Shown here: piece after piece, positions 212 to 44,049 of the stretch
Position numbering within the stretch: position 1 is the stretch's first letter
Layout: each line of letters begins with the position of its first letter
From: Oscillospiraceae bacterium
GTDB taxonomy: Bacteria > Bacillota > Clostridia > Oscillospirales > CAG-272
NCBI GenBank assembly: GCA_015063725.1
Contig: SVTP01000014.1
Coordinates: 1 to 51,368, forward strand
DNA length: 51,368 nt
Direction of reading: 5' to 3'
Notes under the pieces: generated by a model
Seen by the model: only the letters and a program-made list of their open reading frames with translations
Told to the model about the DNA's origin: nothing
Databases searched by the model: none
Program-made: the position numbers and the translations under genes

Positions 212-456
212 CAACTTTCTTAGCGGATGGGGTCTTGGTGGGTCTCGCTGCGGCTCGGTCCCGTTCGCGTTCTGACAGTCCACCGGACTGTCATTCATTA
301 CGCTCACGCCGCTTCGCTACCCAGCCGCTCGCGATAGCAAGGCGCGACGCTTTGCGAGCGCCTCTACCGTCCATCCGTTTGTAACGAATTTACTTTTGAA
401 AATATGTTAGGAAAGTTTTTGGAGGTGTCGGAACCTTTTTTCAAAAAGGTTCTGAC
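212..456 (-). repeat. Composite 3'-end repeat, copy 1
   Basis: On the minus strand, 15 bases after the stop of the isomerase gene, comes a hairpin (427-456, GTCGGAACC arms with AAAAA/TTTTT). Next is the tail ACACCTCCAAAAACTTTC, then a modular half that starts ACGGATGGACGGT (378-366) and ends CCCCATCCGCTAAGAAAGTTG (232-212). The middle carries smaller hairpins such as GACAGTCC/GGACTGTC. The hairpin can act as the terminator of the isomerase gene. Nothing in the element looks coding. Confidence 0.75.
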
Positions 457-470
457 AAAAACGCGCCCCC

Positions 471-4029: not shown

Positions 4030-4100
4030 CGTAGGTGCGACCATTGGCGTCCGTAAAAAAGCGAACAAATCTTCGCAGACGTGCAATGCACGCCTCTACC
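4030..4100. repeat. Dispersed GTAGG repeat (second type)
   Basis: This stretch (cgtaggtgcgaccattggcg ... gacgtgcaatgcacgcctctac) closely matches 34634-34702, down to the internal GACGTGCAATGCACGC. It is non-coding and is followed at once by another palindrome. Confidence 0.7.
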
Positions 4101-4120
4101 GTTCAAAATCTTATGTATCT

Positions 4121-4254
4121 TGTAGGGACCGGCGTCCCCGACGGTCCAAGAAGAAACAAATTTTTGATTGTTCAAAAACAAGGTGTGATAAAAGAACACG
4201 CCGCAAAATTTTTTTGGGATTCAAAATGGACCGTCGGGGACGCCGGTCCCTACA
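4121..4254. repeat. Long GTAGGG palindrome
   Basis: The 27-base arms 4121-4147 and 4228-4254 are exact reverse complements (TGTAGGGACCGGCGTCCCCG onward) around an 80-base AT-rich centre. The design is that of 109-183, but the stem sequence is different. Confidence 0.85.
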
Positions 4255-4369
4255 AGTAAAATTAAAATTCAAACATACGCCTTTACAGTTTGATAACTTT
4301 TTATTCATTTGTATAATCTTGTCACACCTTGCCATACTATTGGTAGCAATTTGCAAGGAGGAGAAGGTT

Positions 4370-25021: not shown

Positions 25022-25246
25022 CAACTTTCGTGGAGCAGGCAGGGTTAGTGGGTCTCGCTGAGGCTCGGTCACGCTCGCGTTCTGATAGCCCACTGGGCTA
25101 TCATTCATTGCGCTCGCGCCGCTTCGCTACCCTGACTGCTACCGATAGTACCTAACAAACAGCACACAAACATTCCCAATCAATTTGGAAAAAATGTTTT
25201 GAAAGTTTTTGAGGGGTGTGGGGAACTTTTTCCAAAAAGTTCCCCA
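25022..25246 (-). repeat. Composite repeat, copy 2, inverted before mutL
   Basis: Read on the minus strand: hairpin GTGGGGAACTTTTTGG/...AGTTCCCCAC (25246-25218), tail ACACCCCTCAAAAACTTTC, then the modular half with GATAGCCC/GGGCTATC and GAGACCCACTAACCCTGCCTGCTCCACGAAAGTTG. This is the same order of parts as the other copies, but it points against mutL and has no minus-strand gene to terminate. It ends 28 bases before the mutL start. Confidence 0.7.
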
Positions 25247-25274
25247 CGGAAAAATCCCCAAGAAAGGATTTTTT

Positions 25275-27572: not shown

Positions 27573-27682
27573 AAAACACTTAACGAGTCAACCGCAGACG
27601 GGTACACCTGAACTGTGTGCTACGTCTCCAAATCATCATTTTTTAGGTGCAAGCTGAACTCTTGCATACGGAAAGGATCAAT

Positions 27683-28831
27683 ATGTCAATCAACAAATTT
27701 GAGGTTCTCAAAACCGAAGGCCGCGCGCGCCGCGGTGTGTTGCACACCGTGCACGGCGACATTCAAACGCCCGTATTTATGAACGTAGGTACCTGCGGTG
27801 CCATCAAGGGCGGCATCAACACCATGGAGCTCAAAAAGGTCGACTGCCAAGTCGAACTCTCCAACACTTACCATTTGCACGTCCGTCCGGGTGACGGGCT
27901 CATCCGCCAAATGGGAGGACTTCGCAAGTTTATGAACTGGGAAGGCCCTGTGCTCACCGATAGCGGCGGATTTCAGGTTTTCTCCCTTGCCAAGCTGCGC
28001 AAGATTACCGAGGAGGGCGTAGAGTTCCGCTCTCACCTCGACGGTGCCCGTATTTTTATGGGACCCGAAGAAAGCATGCAAATTCAATCCAACCTTGCTT
28101 CCACCATCGCGATGGCGTTTGACGAGTGCGTCGAAAACCCCGCACCGCACGAATACTGCAAGCAGAGCATGGAGCGCACCTACCGTTGGCTGGTTCGCTG
28201 CCGCGAGGAGATGGACCGTCTCAACTCTCTCCCTGACACCATCAACCGCCACCAAATGCTCTTTGGCATCAACCAAGGCGGCACCTATGAGGATCTGCGC
28301 ATTGAACACATGAAGATGATCTCCGAGGTTCCCTGTGAAGGGTATGCCATTGGCGGTCTTGCCGTAGGCGAGGAGACCGAGGATATGTATCGCATTATTG
28401 ATGCGGTTGAGCCGCACATGCCCAAGGACAAGCCCCGATATCTCATGGGCGTTGGCACGCCTTGCAACATTCTCGAAGCTATCCACTACGGTGTGGACTT
28501 CTTTGATTGCGTCATGCCCACCCGCAACGCGCGCCATGGCAACGTCTTCACTTGGCACGGCAAAATGAACCTCACCAACGAAAAATACGCGCTCGACGAC
28601 CGCCCGATCGATTCGGGATGCGAGTGCACCGCTTGCAAAAATTACAGCCGTTCTTACATTCGCCACCTGCTCAAAGCCAAAGAGACGGTTGGCATGACCT
28701 TGGCGGTTACGCATAATCTCTATTTCTATAACAACCTTACCCGCAAGATCCGCGAAGCCCTCGACGGCGGCTATTTTGAAAGCTTTTATCAAAAATACCG
28801 CAACATCTTGGGCGAGAGAGTGGAGGACTAA
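27683..28831 (+). CDS. tgt: Queuine tRNA-ribosyltransferase
   Basis: Tgt exchanges guanine-34 of GUN-anticodon tRNAs for the queuosine precursor preQ1. The 382-residue protein has TPVFMNVGT, LTDSGGFQVFSL with the catalytic Asp, FGINQGG, GGLAVGE and DCVMPTRNARHG with the nucleophile Asp. The zinc site CECTAC...H is near residues 312-345. The start is ATG 27683 behind GAAAGGA. A composite repeat with terminator hairpin begins nine bases past the stop. No queuosine synthesis gene or preQ1 riboswitch is seen nearby. Confidence 0.96.
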   Translation: MSINKFEVLKTEGRARRGVLHTVHGDIQTPVFMNVGTCGAIKGGINTMELKKVDCQVELSNTYHLHVRPGDGLIRQMGGLRKFMNWEGPVLTDSGGFQVFSLAKLRKITEEGVEFRSHLDGARIFMGPEESMQIQSNLASTIAMAFDECVENPAPHEYCKQSMERTYRWLVRCREEMDRLNSLPDTINRHQMLFGINQGGTYEDLRIEHMKMISEVPCEGYAIGGLAVGEETEDMYRIIDAVEPHMPKDKPRYLMGVGTPCNILEAIHYGVDFFDCVMPTRNARHGNVFTWHGKMNLTNEKYALDDRPIDSGCECTACKNYSRSYIRHLLKAKETVGMTLAVTHNLYFYNNLTRKIREALDGGYFESFYQKYRNILGERVED

Positions 28832-28839
28832 AAGGAAAC

Positions 28840-29011
28840 GCAGGGGGAACTTTTTGAAAAAAGTTCCCCCTGCACCCCCTCAAAAAATTTTGCACAAAAC
28901 CATCAAAAGAAAACTTCAAAGAAACGGATAGACGGTCGGCGCAAGCATCCGCTTGCTTTGGCTACCGCGAGCGGCTGGGCACCACCGAGACCCCATCCGC
29001 TAAGAGAGTTG
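28840..29011 (+). repeat. Composite 3'-end repeat, copy 3 (behind tgt)
   Basis: Hairpin GCAGGGGGAAC/GTTCCCCCTGC with A/T core (28840-28873), tail ACCCCCTCAAAAAATTTTGCAC, spacer, then ACGGATAGACGGTCGGCGCAAGCATCCGCTTGC... ending CCCCATCCGCTAAGAGAGTTG. At 172 bases it is the shortest clear copy and a good reference for the boundaries. Confidence 0.8.
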
Positions 29012-29057
29012 ATAACCGACAGGAAACAACATTCACCCGAAAGGCAGGCAAGACAGT

Positions 29058-29972
29058 ATGAAAAATCCAAAAATGAATCACGTGCGGCAAATTTGTTCGC
29101 TTACTCGCTACACCGCTGTGGACGGTGAAGAGAAGGGCTTGACCTTTATCGACTGTCACAACGGCAAATTGCGTTTTCTCATCAATGAGAGCCGCGCCCT
29201 TGATATCACGCAGCTATATTTTGAGGGAGAGAATATCTCTTTCCTTTCCAAAAACGGTGTTACAAATAAAAACGTTCCGTTTGCCAACCGCTTTGAGGGC
29301 GGCATGCTTTACACCTGCGGTCTTGACTGTGTAGGAGAGATGGAAGGTCGCGAAACACACGGCACGTTGCATCTCACGCCTGCCATCGTCACGCGCGCAG
29401 AGTGCGACGAGAACGGCATTTTGATCGAGGGCTTTTTGCGCAACAGTGCCTTGTTTGGCAAGCACCTTGTCGTCAAGCGCAAAATCCATTCTGCCGCCGG
29501 CAGCAACTGTGTTGAGGTTGAGGACACGCTCATCAACGAGGGCACAAAAGCGGAAGACTACGCACTTTTGTATCACGTCAACCTCGGCTATCCCTTCCTT
29601 AACGAGGGCGGCAAAATCGAGGTCAATGCAAGGTCTGTGACCCCGCGCACGCCTTGGGCAAAAGAAAATCTTGCAGGATGGGAAACCGTCTCTGCCCCTG
29701 AGGACAACCGCGAGGAGACCTGCTACTTTTTGGAGATGAGTGAGGGATGCGCTGCGTATACCAACCCCACTCTGGGCAAGCGCTTTACCCTTACGTATAG
29801 CCGCCAAACGCTTGGCGAGTTTATTGTTTGGAAGAGCATGGCAAGCGGCGACTACGCCCTCGGACTCGAGCCCACCACCACAAAATTGGATGGCGGATTC
29901 CGCTTTTTAACACTTGGTGCGGGAGAGGAAAAACACTTTAGCTTAAAGCTTTCTATGGAGAACGTACAATGA
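29058..29972 (+). CDS. Aldose epimerase-like protein (DUF4432 type)
   Basis: This 304-residue protein is of the galactose-mutarotase-like beta-sandwich superfamily, closest in feel to DUF4432 proteins (RALDITQLYFEGENISFLS, FEGGMLYTCGLDCVG, THGTLHLTPA, LLYHVNLGYPFL, LGLEPTTTKLDG). The His and Glu residues in THGTLH, YHVNLGYP and LEP match positions used for sugar C1 chemistry in the superfamily. It likely interconverts anomers or binds the sugar handled by the following genes. It is the first gene of a four-gene operon and overlaps the kinase gene by four bases. Confidence 0.8.
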   Translation: MKNPKMNHVRQICSLTRYTAVDGEEKGLTFIDCHNGKLRFLINESRALDITQLYFEGENISFLSKNGVTNKNVPFANRFEGGMLYTCGLDCVGEMEGRETHGTLHLTPAIVTRAECDENGILIEGFLRNSALFGKHLVVKRKIHSAAGSNCVEVEDTLINEGTKAEDYALLYHVNLGYPFLNEGGKIEVNARSVTPRTPWAKENLAGWETVSAPEDNREETCYFLEMSEGCAAYTNPTLGKRFTLTYSRQTLGEFIVWKSMASGDYALGLEPTTTKLDGGFRFLTLGAGEEKHFSLKLSMENVQ

Positions 29973-30985
29973 AAAAACAGGTTGCCATTGCGGGCAACAT
30001 TCTGTTGGATGTTGTCAAACGAATTGATGCGTGGCCCGAGGAGGGCATGCTTGTCAATATTTCCAAAGAGACACGCGCCGTTGGCGGATGCGTGTGCAAC
30101 ACGGGCATCGACCTCAAGGTGCTCGATCCTCAAACAGAGGTCATAGCCTACGGCAAGGTAGGCATGGACGAGTACGGCGAGTGGGTGCTGGGGCAAATGC
30201 AAGAGAGAGGAATCGACGTCAGTCGCGTTGCAAAATCCGCATCGCACCCCACCTCTTACACCGACGTCATGACCGTACAAACCACAGGGCAGCGCACGTT
30301 TTTCCACGCACGCGGTGCCAATGCGGCATTTTTCCCCGAGGATATTGACGTTGAAAAACTGAATTGTGATCTGTTCCATCTGGGCTACTTGCTCCTTTTG
30401 GATGAAATGGATGCCGAGGATGCCGACTACGGTACAAAAGCCGCAAGACTGTTGCACGACGTGCAAGCAAAGGGCATCAAGACCTGCATCGACCTTATCA
30501 GCGACCAGAGCGGAAAGTTCCAAAAGCTCGTTCCGCCCGCACTCAAATATTGCAACTATATTGTTATTAACGAGGTAGAGGGCGGCATGCTGACAGGCAT
30601 TGATGCGCGCCGCGCAGACGGCACACCAAATTGCGAGCATCTCAAAGAAATTTGTAAAAAGATCTTGCAAATGGGTGTCAAGGATGCCGTGGTCATCCAC
30701 TGTCCCGAGCTGGGCTGCGCGTTTGAGGTGAGCGGCAACTTTACCGTTGTGCCGTCTCTGAACGTTCCCCGCGAGGATGTCGTTGGCACCGTTGGTGCGG
30801 GCGATGCCTTTTGTGCGGGAATGCTGTACGCATTTATCAACGATATGAATATGACCGAGGGTATGCGCTTGGCGTCCTGTGTGGCGGCTTGCAATCTCGC
30901 ATCTGCCGACTCGGTCAGCGGAGCGAAGCCCTTGAAAGAAGTGCTTGCATTGGAAAAGAAATATCAAAGGAGAACGGTTTTATGA
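29969..30985 (+). CDS. PfkB-family carbohydrate kinase
   Basis: This 338-residue ribokinase-fold kinase has an N-terminal VGGCVCNTGIDL substrate motif (about residue 38), GKVGMDEYG and the C-terminal signature GTVGAGDAFCAG (about 271-282) with the catalytic Asp. The substrate is a sugar, probably the ketose made by the isomerase encoded next. The first gene's stop and this start share ATGA, and this gene's stop and the isomerase start also share ATGA. The operon is thus strongly coupled. Confidence 0.9.
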   Translation: MKKQVAIAGNILLDVVKRIDAWPEEGMLVNISKETRAVGGCVCNTGIDLKVLDPQTEVIAYGKVGMDEYGEWVLGQMQERGIDVSRVAKSASHPTSYTDVMTVQTTGQRTFFHARGANAAFFPEDIDVEKLNCDLFHLGYLLLLDEMDAEDADYGTKAARLLHDVQAKGIKTCIDLISDQSGKFQKLVPPALKYCNYIVINEVEGGMLTGIDARRADGTPNCEHLKEICKKILQMGVKDAVVIHCPELGCAFEVSGNFTVVPSLNVPREDVVGTVGAGDAFCAGMLYAFINDMNMTEGMRLASCVAACNLASADSVSGAKPLKEVLALEKKYQRRTVL

Positions 30986-31533
30986 TTACCAAACAACAGT
31001 ATGAGTCAGGCGTTGCATACGTTCTGGAAGAGTTCAAAAAAGCAAACATCATCATTACCGAAGAAGAAGCAAACAAAATCGAGGTTGCCGACTTTGGACT
31101 TGGCATGGTCGAAGAGGTCGGCTTGCAGATTTTAACATACGTCAACACCGAAAAATGCTGCGCCAAGGAGATGGTGCTGCGCCCCTATCAGACCTGCCCC
31201 GAGCACACGCACTGCGACGGGGTCGAGAATGGCGTTCCGTACTCCGGCAAGGAGGAGACCTTCCGCTGCAGACGCGGCGAGGTCTATCTCTACGTTTCGG
31301 GGGAAGGGAAGAAAGAGGACATCAAAGCCATTCTGCCCCCCACAACGGTTACTGTGTTCCACGAAATTTGTCTGCGTGAGGGTGAGCAGTACACCATGTA
31401 CCCCAACACTAAGCACTGGTTCCAAGCAGGCAAGGACGGCGCCATCATCAGCGAGTTTTCCACCAAGAGCCGCGACGAGAGCGACGTTTTTGAGGACGTG
31501 CGCATCAAACGAATTCCGGAGGTTGAACAGTAA
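30982..31533 (+). CDS. D-lyxose isomerase-type cupin
   Basis: This 183-residue cupin matches the D-lyxose ketol-isomerase family: RPYQTCPEHTH (metal His pair), GKEETFRC (metal Glu), NTKHWFQAG (fourth ligand His) and EFSTKSRDESDVF. Known enzymes convert D-lyxose to D-xylulose or D-mannose to D-fructose with a divalent metal. AAAGGAG precedes ATG 30982. A longer open reading into the kinase gene has no support. It should supply the ketose to the kinase and aldolase. Confidence 0.88.
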   Translation: MITKQQYESGVAYVLEEFKKANIIITEEEANKIEVADFGLGMVEEVGLQILTYVNTEKCCAKEMVLRPYQTCPEHTHCDGVENGVPYSGKEETFRCRRGEVYLYVSGEGKKEDIKAILPPTTVTVFHEICLREGEQYTMYPNTKHWFQAGKDGAIISEFSTKSRDESDVFEDVRIKRIPEVEQ

Positions 31534-32378
31534 TGCTTGTCAATTTAAAACAGATACTTGAAATTGCCGAGCAGGAAAAAAGCGCCATTGGTATGTTCAA
31601 TGCCACGGGCTTTGATAGCTTGCAGGCAGTCATTTCGGCGGCAGAGGAGCTGAACCGCCCCGTTATTATTGCACACGCCGAGGTGCACAACGTTTACAAC
31701 GATATTTCTATGGTTGGCCCTGCCATGGTGGCGGTCGCGCAGGCGGCAAAGGTGCCCGTTTGCGTACATCTCGATCACGGCACGTCCCTTGATATGATCT
31801 ACAAGGCGTTGCGCCTTGGATTTACGTCTGTAATGATGGATGCATCCGCGCTCCCGTATGAGGAGAACCTTCGCTTGACCAAGCAGATCACCGATGCAGC
31901 ACACGCCATGAACGTCAGTGTGGAAGCCGAGCTTGGCAGACTGATCACCGGCGAGGCAGGCAGCGGCGAGGGATTGGTCGGTGCTCGCCCCGAGGACTTT
32001 TACACACGCCCCGACGAGGCAGAGGCATTCTGCAAGGCAACCGGCATCGATGCGCTTGCCATCGCCTTTGGAACGGCGCACGGATTTTACACCTCGCAGC
32101 CCAAGCTCGACTTTGACGTCATCAAAAACTGCGCCAAAGCCACCGGCTTGCCCCTGGTTATGCACGGCGGCAGCGGTGTCTCCGAGGAGGGCTTCCGCAA
32201 GGCGATCGAGAGCGGCATCCGCAAAATCAATTATTATTCCTATATGTCCAAAGCAGGCTACGCTGCCGCACGTGAGGTCATCAACAGCGGCACCACCAAC
32301 TACCTGCACGACGTCGAATACGCCGCTATGCAAGCTATGCGCGAGGACGTCAAAAAGGCTATAAAAATGTTTTCGTAA
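31533..32378 (+). CDS. Class II ketose-bisphosphate aldolase family
   Basis: A 281-residue class II (zinc) aldolase of the Fba/GatY/KbaY type: HLDHGTS (about residue 79, catalytic Asp and zinc His), VEAELGRL (Glu), FGTAHGFY (His), MHGGSGVS (His) and INYYSYM. It splits a ketose phosphate into dihydroxyacetone phosphate and an aldehyde. The start overlaps the isomerase stop (TAATG), and GGAGG lies in the preceding gene. The exact sugar is unknown; the operon suggests a ketose 1-phosphate or bisphosphate from D-lyxose, D-mannose or an analogue. Confidence 0.9.
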   Translation: MLVNLKQILEIAEQEKSAIGMFNATGFDSLQAVISAAEELNRPVIIAHAEVHNVYNDISMVGPAMVAVAQAAKVPVCVHLDHGTSLDMIYKALRLGFTSVMMDASALPYEENLRLTKQITDAAHAMNVSVEAELGRLITGEAGSGEGLVGARPEDFYTRPDEAEAFCKATGIDALAIAFGTAHGFYTSQPKLDFDVIKNCAKATGLPLVMHGGSGVSEEGFRKAIESGIRKINYYSYMSKAGYAAAREVINSGTTNYLHDVEYAAMQAMREDVKKAIKMFS

Positions 32379-32387
32379 GGGGATAAA

Positions 32388-32703
32388 TGTGGGGGAACTT
32401 TTTGAAAAAAGTTCCCCCACACCCCTTCAAAAACTTTCGCACAAAAATTTCTTAAAGTGATTTCTAACACACGGATAGACAGTCGACGCAAGCATCCGCT
32501 TGCTTTTGCTGTCGCTATTTTGTAGGGACCACCGAGACCCTACAAAATAAGAGAGTTGTTTTGCCGAGGCAAATAATGAAAAGCCTTCCCCTTGAGGTAG
32601 CGTAGCGGCGCGAGTGCAATGAATAACAGTCCTGTGGACTGTTAAAACACGAGCGTGACCGAGCCGCAGCGAGACCCACCAACCCTATCCGCTAAGAGAG
32701 TTG
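32388..32703 (+). repeat. Composite 3'-end repeat, copy 4 (behind aldolase)
   Basis: Hairpin TGTGGGGGAAC/GTTCCCCCACA (32388-32421), tail CACCCCTTCAAAAACTTTCGCAC, then ACGGATAGACAGTCGACGCAAGCATCCGCTTGC. A first ending AAGAGAGTTG comes at 32549-32558, then a second modular block with CAGTCC/GGACTG and the full ending CCCTATCCGCTAAGAGAGTTG at 32683-32703. It looks like two second halves in tandem. Confidence 0.8.
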
Positions 32704-32815
32704 TTTGGCGGTAAAGCGGGAGCACCAAGGCGCTCCCCTACCTAAGAATGATTAGTCACATCGTAGGGGAGGGGCTTGCTCCTCCCGAAAAAATATAGAA
32801 ATTTTTTCAAAATCC
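32704..32815. repeat. GTAGGG-type repeat
   Basis: GCGGGAGCACCAAGGCGCTCCCCTAC and GTAGGGGAGGGGCTTGCTCCTCCC face each other around an AT-rich centre. It is related to the palindromes at 109 and 4121. No coding seen. Confidence 0.55.
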
Positions 32816-34557: not shown

Positions 34558-34584
34558 TTTTCGCTTTGCTCAAATTCGTTAAAG

Positions 34585-34702
34585 CGGGGCGTCGAGGACG
34601 TCGCCCCCTACAAAGAATTATGTTTTTCAATGTAGGGGCGACCATCGGTCGTCCGTCTAAAAAATGATAAATCATCGCGGACGTGCAATGCACGCCCCTA
34701 CA
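34585..34702. repeat. GTAGGGGCG repeats
   Basis: GCGGGGCGTCGAGGACGTCGCCCC hairpin, then TGTAGGGGCGACCATCGGTCGTCCG ... GACGTGCAATGCACGCCCCTAC. The second part matches 4030-4100. Non-coding. Confidence 0.7.
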
Positions 34703-34714
34703 TTTGTCTCTATT

Positions 34715-34889
34715 CAACTTTCTTAGCGAGTAGGGTCTCGGTGGTCCCTAATCGCTTGCGATAGCAAAAGCGCGCCAAGTGGCGCGCGCCGACTGTCTGT
34801 TCGTAAACCAACGACTTTGTTTAGATAATGATTGTGCGAAAGTTTTTGAGGGGGTGCAGGGGGAACTTTTTGAAAAAAGTTCCCCCTGC
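34715..34889 (-). repeat. Composite 3'-end repeat, copy 5 (behind alpha-mannosidase)
   Basis: On the minus strand, eight bases after the GH38 stop: hairpin GCAGGGGGAAC/GTTCCCCCTGC (34889-34856), tail ACCCCCTCAAAAACTTTCGCAC, then the modular half with GGCGCGCGCCACTTGGCGCGC, ending ACCCTACTCGCTAAGAAAGTTG (34736-34715). Confidence 0.8.
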
Positions 34890-34896
34890 GTCTCTT

Positions 34897-37272
34897 TTAG
34901 ATATCTATGATTTTCAACTCATACCGTCCAAACTCCAAGGTCTCGTCATAGCCGAGGGTGGGGATGGAAACGTGTACGGTTTCGGGTTTGATGGTTGTGT
35001 TATAAAGGGTAATTTGATAACCGTTTTCGGTTTGGCGCATCGAGGAGAGCAGAACTCTCTCGTTGTCAAGGGTGACGGCGGGGGCGGGGCGTTGTCCTTC
35101 TCCAGACGGGAAGAAAGAAAGCGCGAAAGGCTCCTCGTTAAAGGCTTGCGCCATGCGATCGACGTGCTTATCTGCCGTAATGCGGAAGGAGAATCGGCGC
35201 TCGCCCATATCCATGTGGTCGCACCAACGGTCGTGCGGTGCAAGCTGACGGGGGCCGATGGTGTGTGCCGAATAGATGGGGGTGCGGAGTAGGGAGATCT
35301 TCATCGAGTGTCCCGTAAAGCTGCCGCCGTGCGTGCCGCGATTGATGATATATACGCGATCCTCGGCATTGTGAATGCCGCACCACTTGTGGCAAACCGC
35401 TTCTCTTTCATCGTGGAAGAGCTCCTCGCGACCAAACGCGGTCTCACCTACGGGAACGCCCTCAAAGGCGGTGTCGACGTGATATTTGAGCATCTTGTTG
35501 GGCTCGCCCGAAAAGATGAGAATATCCACGTCCATATAGTTGCTGTTCTTGGGCATGGTGTACTCTACCATCGCGGTGGAGCGGTTGTATTTGAAGAACG
35601 CCTGCACCTTGGTGCGAACGTCGCCGTCCTCAACTACGCGCACGTTGGGCGTTTTGTCGTCGGGGTAGCCAACAAAGTCGCAAGCCTCGGCATCGCTCAT
35701 CAGCTCAAAGGATGCAAGGTGCTGACGGAAGTTGTCGGTGGTCATTGCCCAGGCGTCCTCGCAGTCGCGGTAGTATTCCAGAGCGCCGCCGTTCTCGATG
35801 AGCGTCTTGCCGTTTGCTGCGAAGGTAAAGAGACCTGTTTTGCGGTCAACAGACATCGCGATTTGATCGTTTGCAACCTCAATTTTGTCATCGGGGTATT
35901 GCAAAACGGGAAGATCTGCCTTGTTTTTGACTTCCAGATGGCAGTCAAAACGGCTGATGGATGCAGGTGCGAGAGTGGCGTGGAAGCTGACCTTTTGCGG
36001 CCAGTCGAGGTTAAAGGTGCAGTTGGGTTTTTCGTTTTGCGAGGGCAGGGCATTGCCTTTCTCGTCATAAACGGTGGCAACCGTCTTTTGTCCCTCGTTC
36101 CAGTTCTGGTCCTCGAGCATAAAGCTCATTTCAAAGTCGCCCTCAACAGGGTAGGGGTGCGGATTGAAGATCATAACGGGAATCTCTTGTCTGTTGCCCT
36201 TTCTCTGCCCTTGGCAGAGCTTGAAGAAGGCTTTGGTAAAGAGCTTGTCGCAAATTTCCGAGCCGTAGGCAAGGGTACGCAGACCGTCCTCTTCTACCAT
36301 CTTAATGCCCGAGCCGGGCAGAACGTCATGGAACTGACAGAACGCGATCGCCTTTTTGGCTTTGAGCAGCTCGTCGGCGTTGTAGTCGGCATTGGTTGCG
36401 AGAGCGGCATAGCTCATGATTTTTTCGGTCATGGCAATCTGGTTCTCCAGCTTGGTGTGCGCTTGCTTCATGCGTACCATCGAGGTGTAGCAGCCAACCA
36501 TCGAGGAGATCAAAGATTCGCTCACTGTGCGCAGCTTGGTGCGGTCCAGTGTTGCAAAAAATGCCTCGGGGGTGGAGTGGAACATTTCAATATCGCCTAC
36601 CTTCATACGCTCGGCAATCGCCGCCAAGTCCTCGCGTGAAGCACCGCCGCCGTGGTTGCCAATGCCCCACATGCACATCGATTCCTCGCGCTCGGGGCCG
36701 TGAGAGAAGTGCTCGTTGATCTTTTTCACGGCTTCCCCCTTGAGGGAGCCGTAGCCGTCATAAAGACTGTGGACGGGGATGGTGCTGGCATCAAAGCCGC
36801 GCCACAAAAAGCTGCCCGCAAGCCACTCGGGGCGCTTGGAAAGATACGCCTCAAAGCCTGTTTTGTTAAGAATTTGTACAAGACCGCGTGTGTGACCAAA
36901 AGAGTCCACGTTCATGGCGATCTTGGGTTCAACGCCGAATTTTTCTTTGAAATATTTGCGCCCCATTGCAATTTGGGAGAGCAGACTCTCGCCCGAGGTC
37001 ATTACGCAGTCGGGCTGCAGATACCAACCGCCAATAATGTTCCATTTACCCTCTTTTACAAGGCGTTGGATGCGCGCAAAAAGGGCAGGCTCGTGCTCCT
37101 CTACCCATTCGTAAAGGAGAGCCTCGTTGTGGTTAAAAATATATCCGTCATATTCCTCGCAAAAGTCTGCCGCTACGCGGAAGGTAGAAATTGCCTCGGC
37201 AAGTCCCTCGTTCCAGCGCCACAGCCATGCGGGGTCAAGATGTGCGTTTGATACCAGATGCAGTTTTTTCAT
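34897..37272 (-). CDS. Glycoside hydrolase family 38 alpha-mannosidase
   Basis: This 791-residue GH38 enzyme hydrolyses alpha-mannosides. The catalytic domain opens with SNAHLDPAWLWRW (zinc His/Asp), and the nucleophile Asp is in NVDSFGHTRG (about residue 130). EDGWAMT-like and HDVLPGSG zinc/His sites follow, then the middle helical and C-terminal beta domains. No signal peptide is present, so it acts in the cytoplasm on imported oligosaccharides. GGAG precedes ATG 37272. The next gene upstream is divergent. Released mannose could feed the D-lyxose/mannose-type isomerase operon, but this is inference. Confidence 0.92.
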   Translation of the reverse strand: MKKLHLVSNAHLDPAWLWRWNEGLAEAISTFRVAADFCEEYDGYIFNHNEALLYEWVEEHEPALFARIQRLVKEGKWNIIGGWYLQPDCVMTSGESLLSQIAMGRKYFKEKFGVEPKIAMNVDSFGHTRGLVQILNKTGFEAYLSKRPEWLAGSFLWRGFDASTIPVHSLYDGYGSLKGEAVKKINEHFSHGPEREESMCMWGIGNHGGGASREDLAAIAERMKVGDIEMFHSTPEAFFATLDRTKLRTVSESLISSMVGCYTSMVRMKQAHTKLENQIAMTEKIMSYAALATNADYNADELLKAKKAIAFCQFHDVLPGSGIKMVEEDGLRTLAYGSEICDKLFTKAFFKLCQGQRKGNRQEIPVMIFNPHPYPVEGDFEMSFMLEDQNWNEGQKTVATVYDEKGNALPSQNEKPNCTFNLDWPQKVSFHATLAPASISRFDCHLEVKNKADLPVLQYPDDKIEVANDQIAMSVDRKTGLFTFAANGKTLIENGGALEYYRDCEDAWAMTTDNFRQHLASFELMSDAEACDFVGYPDDKTPNVRVVEDGDVRTKVQAFFKYNRSTAMVEYTMPKNSNYMDVDILIFSGEPNKMLKYHVDTAFEGVPVGETAFGREELFHDEREAVCHKWCGIHNAEDRVYIINRGTHGGSFTGHSMKISLLRTPIYSAHTIGPRQLAPHDRWCDHMDMGERRFSFRITADKHVDRMAQAFNEEPFALSFFPSGEGQRPAPAVTLDNERVLLSSMRQTENGYQITLYNTTIKPETVHVSIPTLGYDETLEFGRYELKIIDI

Positions 37273-37396
37273 AACAGTGTCTCCGTTCTGCGGAATTTCG
37301 GGGCGCTTTGTCAAAAAGCGACAGATGGGATGCGTTGCCCCATTTAGTTATATCATAAATTAACAGTATTTGCAACACTTTTTATCAAAAAAGCGA

Positions 37397-43931: not shown

Positions 43932-44000
43932 TTTGGAGAGGGGGACTTCTTAAGTAAGAAGTCCCCCTCTCCAAACCTCTCCCCCCAAGAACTTTCTCAC
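43932..44000 (+). repeat. Partial composite repeat (hairpin and tail only)
   Basis: Hairpin TTTGGAGAGGGGGACTTCTT/AAGAAGTCCCCCTCTCCAAA (43932-43975), then CCTCTCCCCCCAAGAACTTTCTCAC. This tail resembles CACCCCCTCAAAAACTTTCGCAC of the other copies. The second modular half is missing. It acts as a terminator for the uronate operon. Confidence 0.65.
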
Positions 44001-44002
44001 AG

Positions 44003-44049
44003 CAAGGAAGGGGGCGTGTGTCTAAATAAGACACACGCCCCCTTCCTTG
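44003..44049 (+). terminator. Very stable hairpin
   Basis: CAAGGAAGGGGGCGTGTGTC / GACACACGCCCCCTTCCTTG, 20-base-pair perfect stem. It is the second hairpin in a row behind the operon and has no T-run of its own. Confidence 0.65.

Follow-up and report, generated by a model that had tools for sequence, protein, structure and literature searches.

In a group of uncultured gut bacteria, many genes carry shortly past their stop codon a dispersed repeat built of a hairpin, a tail and, in part of the copies, a second half, and the tail follows the 5′ arm of its own hairpin position by position, in parallel. Judged from sequence, this arm–tail covariation is what an intramolecular triplex with a single strand switch would be expected to leave, and the strand that appears to satisfy the triplex rules best is template-strand DNA. 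We consider the chances about even that the repeat is a genus-wide, DNA-structural mark of gene 3′ ends, a template-strand triplex that has spread and been swapped between gene ends.

Copies of the repeat in the window

The window, i.e., the whole stretch of 51,368 nucleotides that was analysed, is contig C11 of a 1.85 Mb genome in 38 contigs with about 80% completeness. It contains six copies of the hairpin–tail repeat (c1–c6), and all six places named in the initial annotation exist: four full composites, a fifth at 43932 with hairpin and tail only, and an inverted copy before mutL. In copy c3 (28840-29011, plus strand), the hairpin (28840..28873) begins 8 nt past the stop of a 394-aa gene (27647-28831), which we take from its sequence to be tgt; the tail, the putative third-strand segment (28874..28896), reads CAAAAAATTTTGCAC, and the second half (28923..29011) has covarying stems and the terminus CTAAGAGAGTTG. 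Copy c4 (32388-32703, plus strand) lies downstream of a class-II aldolase gene (31533-32378) and is composed of hairpin (32388..32421), tail (32422..32443), second half (32470..32558) and an extra long-loop module (32596..32703) that resembles the module of c1 and c2. Downstream of a GH38 gene (34897-37314, minus strand), copy c5 (34715-34889, minus strand) has its hairpin at 34856..34889, its tail at 34833..34855 and its second half at 34715..34805. Copy c1 (212-457, minus strand) has a degenerate hairpin of the TGTCAGAACC-TTTTT type (426..457), a tail that is its putative third-strand segment (406..425) and a long-loop variant of the second half (212..358) with the terminus GAAAGTTG. The inverted copy c2 (25022-25247, minus strand) consists of a hairpin (25218..25247), a tail (25196..25217), and a spacer with a long-loop variant of the second half (25022..25195). 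Copy c6 (43932-44001, plus strand), downstream of a short-chain dehydrogenase gene, is a hairpin (43932..43975) with the arm GGAGAGGGGGACTTCTT and a tail (43976..44001), CCTCTCCCCCCAAGAAC, that is the parallel complement of this arm.

Other structured sequences occur in the window. A second perfect hairpin of 21 bp lies behind c6 (44003-44049); the sequence behind c6 in the relative G024 differs, with pairing still possible by eye. A second hairpin-repeat family (GTAGGGGCGACC..., GGACCGGCGTCC..., GGGCGGGGGCTTGCTCCCGCC) is found at 34562-34702, 102-190, 4048-4274 and 32758-32787. Its stretch at 34562-34702 is absent from the orthologous place on two G024 contigs, so an empty site exists for this second family. 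An Rfam scan of the window at gathering thresholds gave no match at the repeat, only two tRNAs and a Gut-1 RNA (RF01706; 21099-21173, plus strand; 56.2 bits, above the gathering score).

Genome-wide architecture of the composite

Two sequence models were built from copies in the same genome: R1 for hairpin and tail (60 positions, 28 seeds) and R2 for the second half (90 positions, 18 seeds). R1 gave 150 matches, which were reduced to 97 sites after opposite-strand matches to the same palindrome had been dropped, and R2 gave 65. The initial annotation had let the composite stand or fall with the genome-wide co-occurrence of its parts, and by this measure it is confirmed: of the 65 second halves, 62 follow a hairpin–tail on the same strand, with a spacing of 25-28 nt in 59 cases and of 42, 47 and 124 nt in the remaining three. 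The R2 seeds had themselves been chosen for following a hairpin–tail, but with these seeds left out 44 of 47 second halves still do so. Conversely, a second half accompanies 61 of the 97 R1 sites, and the hairpin–tail is also found alone. Nine of the 17 base pairs predicted for the second half are changed on both sides in at least one of 18 copies, i.e., show compensated changes. Likeness between non-orthologous copies begins at the hairpin base and stops shortly past GAAAGTTGTTT, at about GTTGTTT; among the 62 copies with a recognisable end, the median length is 176 and the longest 327. The density of R1 sites is uneven, with two on the 176-kb contig C8 and six on the 51-kb window.

Position at gene ends

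Positions were assessed for the 96 of 97 R1 sites with enough flanking sequence, using open frames of at least 100 codons. A sense frame ends within 40 nt upstream at 75 of the 96 sites (median 12 nt), against 5 of 96 in the antisense control and 27 of 358 random positions in the same loci. In the window, the four full copies noted earlier as lying past sense stop codons (c1, c3, c4 and c5) do so at 7 to 13 nt in re-measured coordinates; the exception is c2, which stands before mutL and not behind a gene. An antisense frame of at least 100 codons ends within 300 nt of 48 of the 96 sites, so that about half of them face a convergent gene.

Like an intrinsic terminator, the repeat places a G/C-rich hairpin immediately past the stop codon, and the initial annotation had labelled it a terminator hairpin. 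This label does not hold, since a T-run directly behind the stem is present in only 1 of 95 copies and missing in the other 94. That the copies are plain intrinsic terminators with a chance tail is, in our estimate, next to inconceivable: the idea accounts for a hairpin behind stop codons, but not for a stem that lacks the T-run, a tail that covaries with the arm or a second half at fixed spacing. An ordinary terminator does occur in the 330 nt that follow 27 of the 95 copies, compared with 18 of 291 random windows, and in relative G006 the repeat block itself contains a T-run terminator (by eye); the element thus need not be the terminator.

A Rho-dependent 3′ end, an idea suggested by the C-rich tail, was also rejected. 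A search for the RNA-binding domain of Rho, this one domain only, found no match in 35 genomes of the genus, i.e., the analysed genome and 34 others. Extended to relatives up to the order, 60 genomes in all, it gave a single positive genome. Only 30 of the 60 combine a completeness of at least 90% with contamination no higher than 5% (1 of these 30 positive), whereas the same search was positive in 9 of 14 control genomes. These bacteria seem to lack Rho.

Covariation of arm and tail

In the stems, a purine run is followed by a switch, mostly one to three C long, and then by a pyrimidine run. Across the 97 copies, the tail complements the 5′ arm in parallel, read in the same direction. The tail described earlier as conserved is a consensus and not an invariant sequence; it tracks its own hairpin. 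Arms of GGGGGAAC-TTTTT go with CCCCTC-AAAAA, TTCTT with AAGAA, CC with CC and GGAGAG with CCTCTC; an arm of G5A2-C-T5 pairs with a tail of C4-5 T1-2-C-A5, A3 with T2-3, CCC with CCC, T4 with A4, T6 with A6 and TTTTTC with AAAAAG. Among the 86 of 97 own copies that could be parsed (11 were dropped), the central C count is equal in arm and tail in 83, and for the associations of C count, of T/A class and of A/T run length none of 5000 shuffles reached the observed value. Covariation is equally strict for the A/G and the C/T halves of the tail. When all 97 own copies were scored unparsed, parallel complementarity gave z = 14.0, compared with 6.3 for antiparallel, 2.8 for mirror and -0.4 for identity.

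The same relation is seen in relatives, where 490 hairpins from 220 loci were scored. A score of at least 10 was reached by 69 hairpins when set in parallel against their own tail, by 18 when this tail was exchanged for that of a different hairpin, by 13 in antiparallel and by 1 with the upstream flank. The most telling cases are mixed arms, in which GGAGGGGAGAGGGACTTTT goes with CCACCCCTCTCCCCAAAA, GGGGGAAAGAAACCTTTCTT with CCCCTTTTCTTTCAAAGAA and GGGGAGGAACTTTTTT with CCCCTCTTCAAAAAA. Among hairpins with a C-run tail, G-A-G arms have a C-T-C tail in 36 of 60 cases and plain arms in 29 of 146. Many of these loci were chosen for R1 or R2 matches, and loci L280-L357 were retrieved by a pattern that predetermines the T5/A5 class of one hit in each.

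To remove shared ancestry, arms of the own and other genomes were collapsed into families. For 24 families more than three edits apart, the parallel relation keeps z = 6.1 (0 of 3000 shuffles), with antiparallel at 1.3 (333 of 3000), identity at -1.8 and mirror at -0.2. A parallel score of at least 8 is attained by only 10 of these families, partly because palindromes entered from both sides; in both this test and the hairpin test in relatives, palindromes were read on both strands and many entries represent the wrong side. The collapse also bears on the possibility that ordinary antiparallel pairing links tail and arm, as in an alternative hairpin or anti-terminator. Antiparallel scores exceed shuffles in the uncollapsed set and under finer splitting (z = 4.8, 3.4 and 1.8 at 139, 70 and 35 families), an excess that arises because runs such as TTCTT read the same both ways, yet it is lost at 24 families, and asymmetric arms match in parallel (the GGAGAG and TTTTTC arms above, and TTTCTT with AAAGAA). 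Such pairing of tail and 5′ arm is therefore unsupported after family collapse, and we hold it to be highly improbable. Pairing of the tail with the GAAAGTTG end was also considered; AACTTTC and GAAAGTT look complementary, but no covariation between them was seen in the alignment by eye.

Orthologous sites in relatives

Hairpin and tail are kept at the orthologous sites of c2, c3, c5 and c6 in G024, which were found through synteny, and at c2, c3 and c5 all three strands differ together. For c2, G024 has GGGAAAC/GTTTCCC with the tail CCCTTC, and the window GGGGAAC/GTTCCCC with CCCCTC; the spacer and second half of c2 are missing there. At c3, GCAGGGGAAAAC with the tail CCCCTTTC in G024 corresponds to GCAGGGGGAAC with CCCCCTC in the window, and at c5, TGTGGGGAAAACTTCTT with CCCCTTTCAAGAA corresponds to GCAGGGGGAACTTTTT with CCCCCTCAAAAA. 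For c3 and c5, these differences sit inside otherwise alignable elements. The joint changes could have arisen either step-wise or by copying from another locus. The arm and third-strand segment of c6 are identical in G024, while in G009 c6 shows a G-to-T change together with its partner and the old tail is kept, a change of two strands only.

The gene before c3 was followed in 17 relatives of the genus. Hairpin and tail stand behind it in sense in G006 and G008 and in the opposite sense in G016 (locus L196), and the contigs of G003 and G018 end inside a hairpin; no hairpin–tail was seen at this gene in the other 12. The two most similar of the 17, G011 and G014, have other hairpins there, without such a tail. 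In G024, which lies beyond these 17, the composite is present at this gene. On contig C178 of G024 (locus L391), a single element takes the place of a stretch that in the window comprises c3, c4 and the roughly 3.7 kb of genes between them (28840-32703); its left side is c3-like and its right side c4-like, which would fit recombination between two direct repeats, or the opposite event. Orthologues of the aldolase gene before c4 are at most 44% identical.

A broader comparison paired own sites with relative loci, with orthology resting on blastn flanks and with pairs below 76% identity or with short stretches dropped. The resulting 62 rows are site–locus pairs and not 62 gene ends: 37 carry a tail of the triplex type, 13 have a different hairpin, 9 lack a strong hairpin and 3 show a T-run. 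Since most of these loci were fetched for holding the element, 37 of 62 is no measure of retention.

Distribution across genomes

At E-values up to 0.001, R1 matched in all 35 genomes of the genus that were searched, with 2 to 98 matches each, of which not every one was inspected; outside the genus, 5 of 25 genomes gave 1 to 6 matches. R2, run over 40 genomes, 25 of them from the genus, matched strongly in three genus genomes, the analysed one (61), G024 (59) and G009 (11), and weakly in G001 (4) and G017 (1). In other species the tail is followed by different sequences, and in some of these a hairpin similar in its AGGGACCAC..CCCT form can be recognised (by eye); G006 shows a block of hairpin–tail, T-run terminator and inverted hairpin at three gene ends (by eye). 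In G025 (L358, L359), R1 matches number in the dozens and their scores are equal or almost so, with several pairs about 350 bp apart; this looks like a recent amplification of another member of the repeat. A pattern for one hairpin–tail type retrieved 78 stretches with named genomes, nearly all from MAGs of Oscillospiraceae, Clostridiales or Clostridia and one labelled Verrucomicrobia; the hosts, where given, were sheep, goat, deer, horse and rabbit (Lapin).

Strand preference and proposed mechanism

The strands were compared under the triad rules as we know them. In the 91 of 97 own copies that reached the alignment cut-off, 1180 of 1189 aligned positions would form standard triads on the template strand and 1053 on the sense strand, in an alignment that favours the rule under test; protonated C would be needed 49 times on the template strand and 398 times on the sense strand. 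For the 213 of 490 relatives' hairpins above the alignment cut-off, 2657 of 2711 positions are standard on the template strand and 2439 on the sense strand, with 57 and 941 protonated C, respectively. With nearly all template-strand triads standard, we suggest that the functional form is an intramolecular DNA triplex of the template strand.

We propose that the tail would lie in the major groove, parallel to the 5′ arm, as a third strand with one strand switch. By the same rules, the lower part of the template triplex would consist of G.GC and A.AT triads and the upper part of T.AT, with G.GC in parallel orientation at the switch. The triplex of the template strand may form once the duplex is opened, or under-wound in the wake of RNA polymerase. 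Lying a dozen bases past the stop codon, the element would mark the 3′ end of the transcription unit and could hinder following or opposing polymerases in bacteria apparently without Rho, with copies that probably spread and replace one another between gene ends and acquire lineage-specific second halves. Duplex DNA competes with any triplex, which counts against this proposal, as do the tail-less other hairpins of G011 and G014, the two-strand change at c6 in G009, the position of c2 before mutL and the modest number of families with a high parallel score. A stronger version, in which a Rho-less genus punctuates its gene 3′ ends with alternate-strand template DNA triplexes that replace terminators, block polymerase and are maintained by selection acting on base triads at three positions simultaneously, is more speculative, and we advance it only tentatively.

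Alternative explanations

The repeat could instead act in RNA, the hairpin of the sense transcript and the C/U part of the tail forming a short major-groove triple helix that protects the mRNA 3′ end from exonucleases. The strict sense position past stop codons fits such a role, a point that also counts against the DNA reading, and where a terminator follows a copy (partly judged by eye) the hairpin would be transcribed. Stem mismatches, which are few, point both ways: G.T exceeds A.C by 16 to 7 in 94 of the 97 own copies, counting against the DNA reading, but relatives have 12 and 14 (171 of 175 copies), i.e., no clear wobble bias, and G.U is thus not clearly preferred. In addition, the C.CG triad at the switch would be nonstandard on the sense strand under the rules we used. 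Holder et al. 2015 (PMC4666352) report that RNA can adopt triplexes of the pyrimidine motif but not of the purine motif. The first point is favourable to an RNA element, but the second disfavours RNA for the upper half, since the A/G half of the tail covaries equally. Since no known RNA triple helix accommodates this half of the covariation and G.U is not clearly favoured over A.C in the stems, a DNA structure is preferred over a 3′ RNA structure, although not conclusively, and we regard the RNA element as rather unlikely.

A mobile element without gene-end function, MITE- or REP-like, is also doubtful as a full explanation, if slightly less so; here the triplex would serve transposition and the position would reflect target choice. 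The sharp left end at the hairpin base and the right end near GTTGTTT, common to non-orthologous copies, favour it, as do the lineage-specific second half, the many near-identical scores in G025 and the c3/c4-like recombinant in G024. Six-base flank repeats at 15 of 62 copies (shuffle mean 5.3, maximum 12 in 300) are suggestive of target-site duplication, but they have no fixed offset, are partly of low complexity and lie within the shuffle range at 4, 5, 7 and 8 bases; no excess of pairing between the flanks around the element was found. Against a mobile element, standard copies lack a terminal inverted repeat, their ends being the hairpin and GAAAGTTGTTT, and hairpin and tail are retained at the four synteny-found sites in G024. 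Since the 37 triplex-type tails among 62 pairs are biased by the choice of loci, we weight this explanation slightly higher. The initial annotation had offered either a mobile or amplified element or a family of 3′ RNA structures. Both have some support: amplification and turnover from the sharp ends in non-orthologous copies, the lineage-specific second half and the recombinant in a relative, and likewise a structured family at transcript ends, although its RNA form seems the less likely one. The template-strand DNA triplex remains our preferred reading.

Relation to known systems

The nearest kin are the known bacterial intrastrand triplexes. Holder et al. 2015 (PMC4666352) describe TMECO/BoxC/PIT as dispersed intergenic repeats of which one strand can fold into a hairpin with a third strand, and cite Hoyne and Maher for the PIT elements. 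Like these, the present repeat has a purine motif on one strand and a pyrimidine motif on the other, and varies between relatives. TMECO is a single uninterrupted class II motif of high identity, without strand bias and more often upstream of genes, whereas the third strand here would change its partner strand midway, going from class III to class II on the sense strand, and the copies differ in sequence, with covariation of all three strands, and lie in sense past stop codons; the TMECO/BoxC sequence, CCCTCNCCC..GGGNGAGGG..GGGNGAGGG, differs from that of this repeat, which has a strong sense bias. The same source defines an ITxF as a duplex arm plus a third strand obeying triplex rules on one strand, which the present sequences would allow, but also requires 6-15 triads of a single class (I-IV), without interruption, and loops of 1-6 nt. 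Each half of the present repeat has one separation of about 14 nt or more, with the strand switch within the stem, so an ITxF search would probably miss it.

With H-DNA the repeat shares a 3′ arm and tail that are nearly a mirror repeat and could give three strands, but H-DNA needs one homopurine run, and here purine and pyrimidine runs alternate in a near-perfect palindrome. BOX, BIME/REP and similar elements are likewise modular, dispersed and hairpin-rich small intergenic units; we know of no third-strand tail and no strict sense position past stop codons among them. A search of open-licence literature by title and opening of the abstract found no description of this repeat.

For the E. coli intrastrand triplex motif, PMC4666352 reports that double-stranded DNA stayed duplex in vitro, that in vivo footprints gave no support for the triplex, and that promoter and terminator activity were lacking; our functional claim is tempered accordingly. 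In contrast to that system, where triplex formation in cells could not be supported, the sequence variation of the present repeat lets the putative third strand be followed base by base, including joint three-strand differences at orthologous gene ends. A role of triplexes in cells thereby becomes directly testable, in bacteria where Rho seems to be missing.
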